Origin: an uncultured Bacteroidales bacterium | GTDB lineage: Bacteria > Bacteroidota > Bacteroidia > Bacteroidales > Bacteroidaceae | Length of the DNA stretch: 64,000 nucleotides | Assembly (NCBI GenBank): GCA_902776455.1 | Contig: CACYQI010000006.1 | Location: 1-64,000 of the forward strand | Direction of reading: 5' to 3' | In this document: in pieces, positions 5,967 through 62,510 of the stretch | Numbering within the stretch: the first letter of the stretch is position 1 | Layout: every line of letters starts with the position of its first letter | Notes under the pieces: generated by a model | Seen by the model: only the letters and a program-made list of their open reading frames with translations | What the model was told of the DNA's origin: nothing | The model's database searches: none | Translations under genes and position numbers: made by a program

Positions 5967-6040
5967 TTTCACGCTCCGTGGAGCGTAGCCCGATTCTCCG
6001 TGGAGTGTAAGCCGATTCTCCGTGGAGTGTGAACCGACCC
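5967..6040. repeat. 22-bp tandem repeat array (CTCCGTGGAGYGT family)
   Basis: Three units of a 22-bp repeat share the core CTCCGTGGAGYGT. The same family recurs at 23889, 31157, 39829, 45118 (inside a gene), 48719 and 53142. Confidence 0.9.
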
Positions 6041-17329: not shown

Positions 17330-19300
17330 TCATTCTTCTGCCGCTGTTTCTTCGAACTTATAGCCAAAGCCTTGACGGCTGACTATGTTGTTGGCATAGG
17401 GACCGAGCTTCTTGCGGAGACGTGTGATGTGGACATTGACGGTTCGTTCTGCCACGATGACCCCTGCCCACACCGTGTCCATGATTTGCTGGCGGCTAAG
17501 GACGTGCCCTCGGTTCTTCATCAGAAGTGCGAGCAAGTCAAATTCGGTGCGAGTTAGGCTGACGGGTTGGCCGTCGATGCTGACGGTCTTGTGGTCGAGG
17601 TTGACCTGAAGGGTGCGGAAGTTGAGGTAGTGTTTGCCCAAACGGCATTCGACGACGTTCATTATGTAGTCGCCAAGATGTTCACATTCCCGGATGAGGT
17701 CGTTGTAGATGGAGCCAAGTGCGTAGGAATAAGCGTGATTGTTCACCTCTTTCGCGTTCTCTGTCTTGAGGTTGTCGCGCAGGGCGTTGATGTCGCGCTC
17801 TATGTCTTGCGAGGTGTCGATGCTGTAGTTTTCGCGTCGTCCGCTCACGACCACCATCATTTGTGTCAGAGCTTCGTTGACCAGTTGCAGCATGTCGTGG
17901 AGGTTGTCGTACTGCTTGGTGGTGAAATCTTCGCCGTTGTTGCGTCGATTCTGTATGGTGCGGGCTATTTTGAAGCAGGTGTCGCCGATGGATTCCAGCT
18001 CGCCAATCTGCCGCAGCATGTCGCGTATCTTTCGTTTTGTGTCATCCGAAAGGTGCTCGTTGCTCACTTGTTCCAGGTAGTTGGCTATCTCGCTTTCCAT
18101 GTTGTCGGCAATGGCTTCGTACTTGGCTATGCGGTCGTACTGGCGGTCGAACTCTTTGCGGTCCTTCTCGTCGAGCATGACGCGAGCCATTCCGAACATG
18201 CGTTGCATGCGTTCGGCAAAGAGTACAATCTCCTTTTGTGCCTGCAGTACAGAGATTTCCGGCGTGGTCATGAGTCCTCCGGTGATGAAGCGGAGCGACG
18301 ATTTCGCTTTCGTCTGCTTTCCTTCGGGCAGCAGGCGACAGACGATTTTTGCCATCTGAGGGATGAATCCTATGAGGAGGGCGGTGTTGAGAACATTGAA
18401 GCCTGTGTGGAAAAGGGCAAGCACGATGGGCAGTCGCTCTGCCTGTCCGCTCATGGTCGGGTCGTAGCCAGCCACTTCGCATACTGTGTTGACGAAGGGA
18501 TAGAACACGCTGAGCACCCATACGACGCCGAAGACGTTGAAGAGCAGATGAGCCAGTGCTGCCCTCCGTGCCGTGATGCCAGCGCCGAGGGCGGCAAGGT
18601 TGGCCGTCGCCGTTGTGCCGATGTTCTCTCCCATCACCAGCGCGATACCCATGTAGATGGGCAGTACGCCAGTGGAACAGAGCAGAATGGTGATGGCCAT
18701 CACGGCAGCCGACGACTGCACGATGCAGGTGATGAGCGTGCCGACAGCAAGGAAGGCAAGGATGGTGAGGTAGCTGCTTGTGTCGAACGAGGCAAAGAAC
18801 GCCACCACATCGGCATTGTGTTCGAGGTCCATGTCCCTGCCCACGCTGCTCAACATGACGAGCGACCAGAACATGAACGCCATTCCGAACAGGAAGTCGC
18901 CCACGTAGCGGTGGTGCTTCTTGTAAATGAGCACCATGCCAATAAGGAAGGCGGGAAACACCACGCTCGTCAGGTCAACATTGTATCCCAGCGACATAAT
19001 CCACGCAGTCAGCGTGGTGCCGATGTTCGCTCCCATGATGACCGAAATGGCCTGAGCCAACGTCAGAAGCCCAGCCGACACGAAGGAGACGGTCATGACG
19101 GTCGTGGCCGAGGACGATTGCACAGCACACGTCACAAAAGTTCCCGTAAGCATCCCGCTGAAGCGGTTCGATGTCATCCTCTTGAGAATATGTCGCAGTC
19201 CGGACCCCGCCATTTTCTGTAAGGCGTCGCTCATCGTCTTCATGCCGTAGATGAGCAATGCCAGCGAGCCGAGAAGCCTAACAACAATTTCGATAGCCAT
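17330..19300 (-). CDS. Na+/phosphate cotransporter fused to PhoU and an OmpR-type winged-helix domain
   Basis: This is a 656-residue protein with three parts. Residues 1-345 form an NptA/PF02690-type sodium-phosphate symporter with both hallmark repeats (QSSSATT 61-67 with GANIGTT; QSSAA 195-199 with GENIGTT). Residues about 355-550 are PhoU-like helices. Residues 559-650 are an OmpR/PhoB-type winged helix (LTRTEFDLLALLMKNRGHVL, RTVNVHITRLRKKLG, SRQGFGYKFEE). The transporter-PhoU fusion is common; the added DNA-binding domain is unusual. By analogy with ToxR/CadC it would act as a membrane-bound regulator reporting phosphate transport. Start 19300 is chosen because the -7 box covers the longer in-frame start. 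No frame break is seen. Confidence 0.9.
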   Translation of the reverse strand: MAIEIVVRLLGSLALLIYGMKTMSDALQKMAGSGLRHILKRMTSNRFSGMLTGTFVTCAVQSSSATTVMTVSFVSAGLLTLAQAISVIMGANIGTTLTAWIMSLGYNVDLTSVVFPAFLIGMVLIYKKHHRYVGDFLFGMAFMFWSLVMLSSVGRDMDLEHNADVVAFFASFDTSSYLTILAFLAVGTLITCIVQSSAAVMAITILLCSTGVLPIYMGIALVMGENIGTTATANLAALGAGITARRAALAHLLFNVFGVVWVLSVFYPFVNTVCEVAGYDPTMSGQAERLPIVLALFHTGFNVLNTALLIGFIPQMAKIVCRLLPEGKQTKAKSSLRFITGGLMTTPEISVLQAQKEIVLFAERMQRMFGMARVMLDEKDRKEFDRQYDRIAKYEAIADNMESEIANYLEQVSNEHLSDDTKRKIRDMLRQIGELESIGDTCFKIARTIQNRRNNGEDFTTKQYDNLHDMLQLVNEALTQMMVVVSGRRENYSIDTSQDIERDINALRDNLKTENAKEVNNHAYSYALGSIYNDLIRECEHLGDYIMNVVECRLGKHYLNFRTLQVNLDHKTVSIDGQPVSLTRTEFDLLALLMKNRGHVLSRQQIMDTVWAGVIVAERTVNVHITRLRKKLGPYANNIVSRQGFGYKFEETAAEE

Positions 19301-19327: not shown

Positions 19328-19335
19328 CAAAGGTA
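19328..19335 (-). promoter_or_regulatory. -7 box of the Na/Pi-PhoU-wHTH gene
   Basis: TACCTTTG on the minus strand, 28 bp before the ATG; no clear -33 element. Confidence 0.5.
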
Positions 19336-19444
19336 CGCATAAAAAGCCGTGCGAGTATGAAATACGTGGTTACATTTCGGTTACTTTTTGTTTTGGCCAT
19401 CAGTAGCCATGCGGGCGCAGCTCATTCGGCATGGGGGAAAGCAA

Positions 19445-19532
19445 ATTCTCACACGTGATAAATGATTTTCTCACACGTGATAAAACGATTTCTCACTGGT
19501 GATAAATTGATTTCTCACCAGTGAGAAAAAGG
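19445..19532. repeat. TCTCAC-GTGATAAA repeat
   Basis: Four units of about 27 bp built on TTCTCACACGTGATAAA or TTTCTCACTGGTGATAAA end in a near-palindrome (TTTCTCACCAGTGAGAAA). It lies between the sialidase stop and the transporter gene. The rest of 19336-19599 shows nothing. Confidence 0.75.
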
Positions 19533-19599: not shown

Positions 19600-21048
19600 T
19601 TATCGGATGTTGCCGTTGGTTATCTGGCTGAGAGTGAGGGGCACATAGACCATGTTGTAGATGTAAGGCTCCTCTTCGTAGAAGAAGGCGATGCGGCCGT
19701 CTTTCTGCTGGCACATAGTGGAGTAGGCGGAACGCTTGCTGGTGACTTGCAGGCCTTGCTTCCAGTCTTCGGCAAAGGCAGCAGAGGTGTAGTGCTTGCC
19801 CCGTCTTCCCTTTTTTCCCTCGGCCTGTTCCTCAAGCACCTTATAATAAATAGTCACGTCGGCACGCGTATCGGCTTTCGGGAGGCTTTGGAGAACTACG
19901 TAAACGCGCTTGCCGTCGGACGTGCGACGACCCCGGACGATGAGTATCTCGCCGTTGCAGCTGTTAGCACCCACCTTGATGCCCGTCGGCACGTCGTGAC
20001 TGTTGATGGGCGTGTCCCAAGAGCCTTCCGTGGTGCTGCCTTCGGCGAAGGTCCAGATGTTGAACGTGCGGCCGTACCACTTTCTGCCGCTCAGCACGAT
20101 TTGTCCCGAGGGCAGTTCCTCCACCTTTGGCTCGTCGCTGTCGGGAGCGGGCTGGAACGTCGGGTCGCCGCCCAAAAGCTGCCACGTCATGCCCATGTCG
20201 TCGCTATAGACCACGTAGGCGCCCTTCAGCCCCGTGCCCTTCACCAGCAGGGCGGCATAGAGACGATAGTATTTGCCGACCTTCGTCAAGCGGCTCTGCA
20301 GTATCTTACCGCTGCCGAAGAAGCCTGCCCACGCAAAAACGCCCATTCCATCGTCAGTTTCGCTTGTCTGGAAGAGCGAGCCCTGCTTTCCCCAGAACTG
20401 TTGTGTGATGTCCTCCGGCGTGCTCCATGTGTGTCCGCCATCCGTAGTGACCTGACGTGCGATGAAGGGACGATAGTCCGCTTTGGCGTAGCCATAGATG
20501 CATTTTCCGCTGACGGAGATGAGCACGCCACGGTTGCTTTCGCGGTCGAAGCACAGGGCCGGGTCGCCGAAGCCCACGCCGAAGACGTTGTCATTTCCGC
20601 CCATTCCATCGGCAATTTTGGTCTCTTCCGACCACTTACGGCCGTTGTTCTTCGAGATGCGCATCACCTGATCGACCTCGCCGAAACCGATGTCGAAGCC
20701 ACAGACGCGGTAGTCGTAGATGGCCACCAGTTCGCCTTTCCGGTTCTTCGCTATGGCCGGGATGCGATAGACATCGCGTGTGCTGTCGTTGCTATGTGCC
20801 AGGATTTGTTTTTCGCTGTACTGCATCGGCTGAACCTCCGAGGCACCTGTGGTGGCATCGACGTTCTGTGCGTAAGAAAACGCCCATTTCATCGAGAAAA
20901 ACAGGAACAGGAGGATGTGAAGAGTACAGTTGTTCTTGTTGCAACCGTCGCAGCAGCTGCACTTGTTGTCGCTGCGGAGATAGCGGTACATGACGTAAGC
21001 CGCGATGACAATCACAGCGGCAAGGAGAAGGATGCTTTGTGTGTTCAT
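19600..21048 (-). CDS. FeoB-associated Cys-rich segment fused to a GH33-type sialidase
   Basis: This is a 482-residue protein. Residues 1-41 (one membrane helix, then Cys 30, 32, 33, 36 and 41) match the small FeoB-associated Cys-rich membrane protein that usually follows feoB as its own gene. Without a stop the frame continues into a second hydrophobic stretch ending AFSYAQ, like a sialidase signal peptide, and then an exo-alpha-sialidase. Its RIP motif is at 95-97 and Asp boxes are at 132-139 (SKNNGRKW), 201-208 (TTDGGHTW) and 282-289 (SDDMGMTW). The only later in-frame ATG (residue 53) would remove most of the signal peptide. It is downstream of feoAB on the same strand. Confidence 0.85.
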   Translation of the reverse strand: MNTQSILLLAAVIVIAAYVMYRYLRSDNKCSCCDGCNKNNCTLHILLFLFFSMKWAFSYAQNVDATTGASEVQPMQYSEKQILAHSNDSTRDVYRIPAIAKNRKGELVAIYDYRVCGFDIGFGEVDQVMRISKNNGRKWSEETKIADGMGGNDNVFGVGFGDPALCFDRESNRGVLISVSGKCIYGYAKADYRPFIARQVTTDGGHTWSTPEDITQQFWGKQGSLFQTSETDDGMGVFAWAGFFGSGKILQSRLTKVGKYYRLYAALLVKGTGLKGAYVVYSDDMGMTWQLLGGDPTFQPAPDSDEPKVEELPSGQIVLSGRKWYGRTFNIWTFAEGSTTEGSWDTPINSHDVPTGIKVGANSCNGEILIVRGRRTSDGKRVYVVLQSLPKADTRADVTIYYKVLEEQAEGKKGRRGKHYTSAAFAEDWKQGLQVTSKRSAYSTMCQQKDGRIAFFYEEEPYIYNMVYVPLTLSQITNGNIR

Positions 21049-61797: not shown

Positions 61798-62510
61798 CTG
61801 GCGGATTTGCAATCCGCTAGAATGGAGATTAGGCATTTGTAATGCCGAGATTTGGCGAAGTCTGGATTGCAAATCCCGATACTCCATACGGTCGGATTGC
61901 AAATCCGCCCGAACATGGCGCCAAATCATCATCGGCCTGGAATAGGATTCCTTTGTTACTGTCTTGGGAAAAGCACCGAAGGTGCGAAAGAACACAGACG
62001 GGGGTGCAAACCCCCGGTACAGGTTCGTCAAACAACAGTAAGCCCTGAAAGGGCGACAGATTATGGTGTTTGTTTAATGTCCAGTTGCATCTGTCTCTGT
62101 CGCCCTTTCGGGGCTTCTTTTGTTGTTGCGTTCCTACCGGGGGTTTGCACCCCCGTCTGTGCTCTGTCGTCTCTTCGAGACTTTGGGCAAGTCCCTATAA
62201 GTTGCTTTTCGTTCGGAGCGGTGTGTCGCCCTTCTTTTGTTGTTGCGTTGTCCGACGCTGCCTGCTGTGTTCGTTGCTCCTACATGTAAGAGCAATTGCT
62301 CCTACATGAAGGAGCGATTGCTTCTACATGAAGGAGCAAGCAACTCTCCCTGCCGTCTTGGCTAAAGTCTCGAAGAGACGACAGACCACAGACGTGGCGC
62401 AAGCCCTCGGTAGTAGTGCGAAACAAATGCATGTTCCTTGCCGGGGGTTGACACCCCCGTCTGTGATCTCTCGCGCCTTCGGCGCTTATTTGGCGGACAA
62501 CATTGGTTAA
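61795..62510. repeat. Composite repeat block after recA
   Basis: It contains GGCGGATTTGCAATCCGC hairpins, GGGGGTGCAAACCCCCGG and its inverse, GCCCTGAAAGGGCGAC / GTCGCCCTTTCGGGGC, and CTACATGTAAGAGCAATTGC repeats. No gene is seen from 61726 to 62674. Confidence 0.85.

Follow-up and report, generated by a model that had tools for sequence, protein, structure and literature searches.

How PhoU connects a transporter to PhoR and PhoB in signalling the phosphate state is a long-standing question. The Pho box of E. coli is a tandem element with an 11-bp period, and ToxR and CadC combine an N-terminal winged helix with a single membrane helix and a periplasmic sensor. Here, we describe a gene from the window (the whole stretch of 64,000 nucleotides of Bacteroidales DNA that was analysed) that encodes a Na/Pi cotransporter, PhoU and an OmpR/PhoB-type winged helix in one frame. 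The product resembles ToxR and CadC in that an OmpR-type winged helix is tied to the inner membrane, but differs in domain order: the transporter and PhoU come first, and the winged helix is C-terminal (residues 577-649).

With the PhoR-PhoB system that operates with PhoU and Pst (in E. coli and, as BF1575/BF1576, in Bacteroides fragilis, as presented in the parts of PMC3547664 used here), the fusion protein shares PhoU, the PhoB-type winged helix and a tandem box of 11-bp period upstream of phosphate transport genes; however, it has no receiver, kinase or phosphorelay, and the transporter that is covalently built into the regulator is a Na/Pi symporter rather than Pst. CbrA and the other SLC5-STAC histidine kinases, as far as the portions of PMC13022988 and PMC7096432 considered here describe them, are transceptors that likewise join a membrane domain of the sodium/solute-symporter type, through a small helical domain, to a signalling output. 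CbrA signals through a histidine kinase to a separate regulator, whereas the output of the fusion is the DNA-binding domain itself, and the transporter of these kinases belongs to the SLC5 family rather than being NaPi/SLC34-like; SLC5, STAC and histidine kinase domains are not among the three Pfam matches of the fusion protein. By its residues 1-556, the fusion is a member of the NptA-type Na/Pi cotransporters with PhoU (TIGR00704, NF037997). The unfused relatives that we examined end after PhoU, whereas the fusion runs on into the DNA-binding domain. In agreement with the first-pass annotation, which knew of no such protein, we found no described example of the transporter-PhoU-winged-helix architecture in the open-licence literature; PMC13170248, in the part considered here, excludes Na_Pi_cotransporter-PhoU proteins from its PhoU sequence analysis.

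Domain architecture of the fusion protein

The fusion gene is a frame of 656 codons on the minus strand, with the ATG at 19300, the stop codon at 17330-17332 and no stop inside (window 17330-19300). Its features are as follows:

17330..19300, minus strand: fusion gene, Na/Pi cotransporter - PhoU - PhoB-type winged helix (656 aa and stop)
18281..19300, minus strand: membrane transporter domain, approximately residues 1-340 (Pfam Na_Pi_cotrans and alignment)
17636..18268, minus strand: PhoU region, approximately residues 345-555 (Pfam PhoU at 362-448 and alignment)
17345..17629, minus strand: OmpR/PhoB-type winged helix, residues 558-652 (Pfam, alignment and structure-database profile)
17447..17470, minus strand: loop WAGVIVAE preceding the recognition helix (alignments)
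17405..17446, minus strand: recognition helix RTVNVHITRLRKKL, residues 619-632 (RTVNVHITRLRKKLG when taken to residue 633; alignment to PhoB)

Pfam searches of the fusion protein identified Na_Pi_cotrans (PF02690, E 2.6e-55) in two stretches, the best at 15-151, PhoU (PF01895, E 4e-8) at 362-448 and Trans_reg_C (E 5.4e-23) at 577-649, with all 77 profile positions covered, and gave no Response_reg match, that is, no receiver domain. Among the NCBIfam models, TIGR00704 matches the N-terminal part with 217.5 bits, above the cut-off of 210.1, and the top regulator model for the winged helix is NF053854 (PhoB of Bacteroides), aligned over profile positions 130-225; with 111 bits against a cut-off of 270, the fusion does not qualify as a full-length PhoB. 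A profile derived from 40 fusion C-termini retrieved, as the top solved structure, the DNA-binding domain of E. coli PhoB (1gxp/1qqi; E 2.8e-21). Another profile, made from 45 aligned proteins (31 fused and 14 unfused), matched solved structures of solute carrier 34 member 2a, which is the best solved relative of the transporter domain, of E. coli PhoB and of PhoU, with PhoU 2i0m aligned to residues 380-552.

Two QSS motifs (Q61 S62 S63 and Q195 S196 S197), the conserved transport motifs of NptA-type Na/Pi cotransporters, are invariant in all 45 aligned proteins, as are the PhoU residues E434/E436/D440 and E540/D544/N548, and the fusion protein is predicted to carry out Na+-coupled Pi transport. 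In the alignment, the last PhoU helix passes into the winged helix with almost no linker. The fused domains are under purifying selection: six of seven chosen pairs give the winged helix a dN/dS of 0.046-0.154, with the seventh, saturated pair left out and dS above 1 in three of the remaining six. The presence of a transporter, PhoU and a complete winged helix in one frame, as claimed in the first-pass annotation, is thus confirmed.

Recurrence of the fusion in other genomes

The search for this architecture in relatives, which the first-pass annotation had called for, yielded numerous cases. The fusion is present in 20 of the 139 genomes of the genus, three of these genes being partial or damaged (in G096 at a contig end, in G132 through an internal deletion, and in G085), and in 26 of the 301 genomes of a family sample that shares genomes with the genus set. 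Across the order, the junction was matched at E 1e-28 or better in two of 393 genomes, the source genome and one from another family. A scan of named genomes gave at least 61 fusions among the 80 loci kept; among the matches listed, the remaining loci are 18 unfused transporter-regulator pairs and one lone regulator, and five of the 61 fusions are partial, split or damaged. The assemblies are mostly drafts, and kinship among them inflates the counts. Because the same frame with a conserved junction recurs in many genomes, the fusion is attributable neither to chance nor to misassembly. Most of these genomes are metagenome-assembled, which might raise the suspicion of an assembly or annotation artefact; this explanation is practically excluded, being refuted by the same frame in dozens of other assemblies and in six records that, among the matches listed, carry no MAG or uncultured mark (Prevotella sp. 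khp7, P. ruminicola KHT3, P. aff. ruminicola Tc2-24, Prevotellaceae HUN156, Prevotellaceae MN60 and Bacteroidales bacterium KHT7).

By record title, 40 of the 61 named fusions, among the matches listed, originate in the ruminant stomach (22 are RUG genomes, RUG denoting the rumen, and 18 have a title that names a stomach compartment); the ruminant stomach is also the source of unfused pairs, and sampling is biased, so that these counts carry no ecological inference. No conserved operon partner of the fusion was seen in the 32 fusion loci considered, the commonest neighbour family occurring in six. The deletion in G132 (L046:1246-1887) is in frame and leaves approximately 88 transporter residues, immediately followed by the last helix of PhoU and then the winged helix.

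Clades and number of fusion events

On the transporter tree, the fusions fall into separate blocks, which requires five changes of state with 79 rows and, again, five with 152 rows. The membrane domain of the window gene belongs to one of these blocks, clade A. Sliding identity shows that clade A transporters are mosaic: approximately over residues 51-310, identity is 0.71-0.93 to the unfused P1 transporters versus 0.47-0.76 to clade B, whereas over residues 351-656 it is 0.60-0.73 to the clade B and C fusions versus 0.32-0.62 to P1. The membrane domain of clade A (~51-310) seems to have been exchanged by recombination with unfused paralogues, and this swap would account for some of the five changes on the transporter tree.

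In the tree of the PhoU-winged-helix part, clades A, B and C form one clade (support 100/99), D another (100/100) and E a third (98/98), and three changes are left. The A-C fusions share the loss of one residue from the loop that precedes the recognition helix, the transactivation loop. In the window protein, this loop reads WAGVIVAE; the aligned response regulators have one residue more here, as do clades D and E, which also have other junctions. A single fusion for all cases was considered and set aside given the three changes on the C-terminal tree and the differing junctions, yet a single origin is not rejected by the AU test (p 0.102). The sequences are compatible with one to three fusion events, with three favoured by the tree and the junctions. 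PhoU and the winged helix were apparently inherited as one block while the membrane part was swapped, which is what functional coupling of the two domains would give.

Likely origin of the fusion and loss of the phosphorelay

In the unfused relatives, the gene order is transporter-PhoU (~560-585 aa), response regulator (receiver and winged helix) and a kinase of ~305 aa; the domains of this putative precursor operon were assigned by Pfam searches with two regulators and four kinases. In the L138 operon, the single pair to which the NCBIfam models were applied, the regulator scores 303 bits and passes the cut-off of 270 for the PhoB equivalog NF053854, and the kinase aligns only to positions 353-583 of the 583 of the PhoR model (332 bits, cut-off 500). 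This kinase thus resembles a PhoR that has lost the sensor half. Elsewhere in the family, genomes of other genera have a PhoB-like regulator near a kinase frame of ~600 aa (for example, in G290).

The fusion joint lies within the inter-domain linker of the regulator, and the final helix of PhoU (VVEARLGK in clades A-C) there leads almost straight into strand 1 of the winged helix. The likely origin of the fusion gene, judging from these comparisons, is the joining of a Na/Pi cotransporter-PhoU gene to that half of the phoB gene directly behind it which encodes the DNA-binding domain, whereby the PhoB receiver and the truncated phoR gene would have been lost. Short kinases, called at E 2.2e-100 or better, and fusions do not occur together: within the genus, they are found in 22 and 20 of the 139 genomes, respectively, with no overlap (P 0.024), and within the family, where the best seven or fewer candidates per genome were scored, in 29 and 26 of the 301 genomes, again with no overlap (P 0.064). 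These P values are marginal and ignore kinship, the genomes being related and often incomplete. In the union of both sets, there are 42 fusion genomes and 47 short-kinase genomes, and the overlap is 0. One of the 47, G011, contains a 485-aa frame (L174:1495-2949, minus strand) that runs from the N-terminal half of the transporter into the PhoR-like kinase, possibly a transporter-kinase fusion from the same operon; this is a single case that might also result from a deletion or an assembly fault.

The source genome shows no kinase match at 1e-55, and its sole other winged-helix match, on contig 4, is weak (39% identity over 568-635, E 1.9e-7). In the fusion, the receiver and the kinase are gone. 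With the receiver and the PhoR-like kinase missing, and the DNA-binding part being of the Bacteroidetes PhoB type, the claim of the first-pass annotation that PhoR/PhoB is bypassed is corroborated.

The isolated DNA-binding domain of PhoB binds DNA without the receiver. Conceivably, the active factor could be a soluble winged helix or a soluble PhoU-winged helix, produced by proteolysis or from an internal start, with the fused form serving only as a store. A methionine just before the junction (GDYVMNVVEARLGK), present in 21 of the 22 aligned clade A-C fusions but in none of the 16 unfused partners, would suit an internal start. However, this residue is missing also from the clade A member L307, from all five clade D proteins and from all but one of the 11 of clade E; the near-absent linker of clades A-C offers no obvious cleavage site, and PhoU and the winged helix evolve as a single block. 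We consider a released form of the regulator to be quite improbable.

Predicted operator and promoter

Upstream of the fusion gene, a motif search identified a putative operator and promoter:

19369..19385, minus strand: predicted operator AGTAACCGAAATGTAAC, two GTAAC repeats with an 11-bp period (Pho box)
19328..19335, minus strand: promoter -7 element TACCTTTG (TAnnTTTG), 50 bp after the operator start

TAnnTTTG is the Bacteroidetes promoter -7 consensus. The tandem 11-bp repeat TGTAAC-N5-TGTAAC is common to the upstream regions of fusion genes and precursor operons. Leaving out upstream stretches shorter than 150 bp, it occurs within two mismatches in the window (1/1), in clades A (9/9), B (6/7), C (2/2), D (4/5) and E (2/8), at 14 of 16 precursor promoters and before two of five unfused stand-alone transporters. 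The spacing of 49-50 bp to TAnnTTTG is found in the window, in clades A (7/9), B (5/6), C (2/2) and D (3/4), and in 11 of the 16 precursors; the predicted cognate operator thus stands at a fixed spacing. The box of clade E is weaker and reversed: all eight sequences contain it within three mismatches, at 54 bp, but for six of the eight, an equally good match appears in 7-21 of 60 shuffles.

The combined box and promoter pattern yielded 60 matches in 52 genomes versus five for the reversed control. In clade A-C genomes, the fusion promoter is among the matches in 18 of 22 and is the sole match in 17 of 22; two others (G113 and G222) have zero matches, and in G154 and G428, the pattern precedes another Na/Pi transporter gene, not the fusion. 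In the source genome, too, the promoter of the fusion gene is the sole strict match, and a looser pattern gave five sites versus six in the reversed control. Among 18 further genomes (genera g27, g30, g33, g37 and g51), there were 12 matches in nine genomes versus one in the control. Five of the 12 precede PiT-type genes (L270, L272, L273, L278 and L279; assigned by a Pfam search with L270 only) in G395, G435, G238, G384 and G170, and each of these genomes also contains a PhoR-like kinase frame of 480-602 aa; two precede Na/Pi transporters (L275 and L276, in G381 and G425); and five precede other genes or none.

Since the box precedes fusions, precursor operons and PiT-type genes, and since B. 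fragilis phoB regulates pst and a phosphate/sulphate permease (according to the parts of PMC3547664 used here), the best interpretation of the tandem repeat is that it is the Bacteroidetes Pho box; the DNA specificity of the ancestral PhoB seems to be retained in the fusion. In unfused or clade D relatives, additional Pho-box promoters precede genes for PepSY_like lipoproteins and DUF2490 proteins (L248, L249, L250, L254, L255, L256, L258 and L262), which would be unexpected members of a phosphate regulon.

The 22-bp palindromic repeats at 19446-19529 were also considered as the operator and rejected: the motif occurs 63 times, in clusters across many contigs, compared to none for the reversed control. 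Many tandem arrays with a 22-bp period (also 44 and 88) and mutually unrelated sequences, often with palindromic units, are scattered over the window, including those at 5974, 9186, 15695, 19446, 23893, 29502, 31149, 39835, 45122, 48722, 53142, 57341 and 62274. Elsewhere in the window, a 482-aa frame (19600-21048, minus strand) leads from a FeoB-associated Cys-rich segment, weakly matched by Pfam below the cut-off, straight into a BNR/sialidase-like protein, which may reflect an overlooked start or a real fusion, and a match to the Rfam family Acido-Lenti-1 RNA at 62441-62486, plus strand, scores just above the gathering threshold (39.4 versus 37).

Association of the recognition helix with the operator

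Among the matches listed, the recognition-helix pattern is intact in 51 of the 61 named fusions and altered in ten (L337-L344, L346 and L347), nine of which belong to clade E; the tenth, L347, was too short for the tree. Thus, of the circumstances that the first-pass annotation had named as speaking against its reading, an isolated fusion, an artefact and loss of recognition-helix residues, none applies to the window protein, although the last is seen in these ten homologues. When the 56 fusions with a full gene start were compared, the box was found within two mismatches before 38 of 47 genes with an intact helix and none of the nine with an altered one (0.7 and 0.03 expected from shuffles; Fisher 6e-6), and within three mismatches before 43 of 47 and, again, none of the nine (7.0 and 0.9 expected; Fisher 9e-8), with kinship ignored in both tests. 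An intact helix without a box is found in L303, L333, L336 and L345. Such co-occurrence is the expected outcome if the fused domain binds that operator.

The ten altered helices, with all nine of the genes that have a full start lacking the box, could be taken to mean that the winged helix is a passenger or structural add-on with no function on DNA. As a general account of the fusion, this is very unlikely, given the retention of the helix pattern in most named fusions, the purifying selection on the winged helix and the tight association of the intact helix with the operator. In the altered-helix fusions themselves, the winged helix may be decaying or have another role; for the window protein and its relatives with an intact helix, we favour DNA binding.

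Probable regulatory target and sign of regulation

PstA (TIGR00974, E 1e-30 or better) was not found in the source genome, which is 87% complete; it is present in nine of 39 fusion genomes, four of 25 precursor-operon genomes and nine of ten genomes of g27 and g37, many of these assemblies being incomplete. The first-pass annotation had suggested an operator shared with pst/pho genes: the part concerning the Pho box holds, in that a matching box lies at the fusion promoter, but no regulon near pst genes was found in the source genome with either the strict or the looser pattern. With PstA not found and the gene's own promoter as the sole match, the likely output is self-regulation, not a wide programme, and we infer that the fusion protein regulates mainly its own gene. 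A lone self-target would suit a membrane-tied factor because insertion of the nascent protein could draw its gene to the membrane.

Altogether, we regard it as probable that the fusion protein is a phosphate transceptor and a one-step transcription factor of its own gene, functioning without PhoR and the PhoB receiver. The transporter domain would move Na+ and Pi, and the cytoplasmic PhoU helices would signal the transport or Pi state to the winged helix, which would bind the tandem Pho box ahead of its own gene. By analogy with PhoB at pst, scarcity of Pi would leave the winged helix free, and two copies, bound to the repeat a short distance ahead of the promoter, would increase expression of the transporter gene; when Pi enters, PhoU would restrain the winged helix. 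On balance, we lean towards a fuller version of this scheme, in which Pi occupancy or flux moves PhoU and thereby frees or holds the PhoB winged helix, such that a single polypeptide replaces a two-component system, and in which the series from separate phoBR through an operon of transporter, phoB and truncated phoR to the fusion was completed probably on about three occasions, in Bacteroidales of the gut and rumen, most of them with no Pst permease found.

Data on B. fragilis bear on the sign of regulation. In the parts of PMC3547664 used here, pst and a phosphate/sulphate permease lose expression in the phoB mutant, and EMSA shows binding of PhoB to the promoter of pstC; Table 2 of the same paper lists BF4351, a putative Na+-dependent phosphate transporter, as 101-fold down at low Pi in the wild type and unchanged in the phoB mutant. 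PhoB, directly or not, would thus lower BF4351, which weighs against a simple activator model and slightly reduces our confidence in the proposed scheme and in its fuller version. The winged helix might, accordingly, act as a homeostat or repressor that controls its own gene, perhaps negatively, by transporter level or in the opposite direction to Pst, without being released for activation by the occupancy of Pi. Besides the PhoB-dependent drop of BF4351, the status of the fusion promoter as the sole match in most clade A-C genomes and the lack of an excess of looser sites over the control in the source genome fit this alternative. However, the position of the operator is upstream of the promoter, with a spacing close to that seen at the PiT-type genes of other genera; the drop of pst and the permease in the phoB mutant (PMC3547664, same parts) points to activation; and the acidic residues of PhoU are invariant. 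We therefore deem the homeostat or repressor rather unlikely and, by analogy with PhoB, activation the more probable sign.

Significance

With the sensor and the DNA-binding output in one chain and a near-zero linker between PhoU and the winged helix, the coupling between phosphate state and transcription could be followed in a single protein and its promoter. The fusion also illustrates how, in nature, a two-component system may be reduced to a transporter-regulator of one component, and it suggests where phosphate control resides in those Prevotella-type bacteria for which we found neither Pst nor PhoR.
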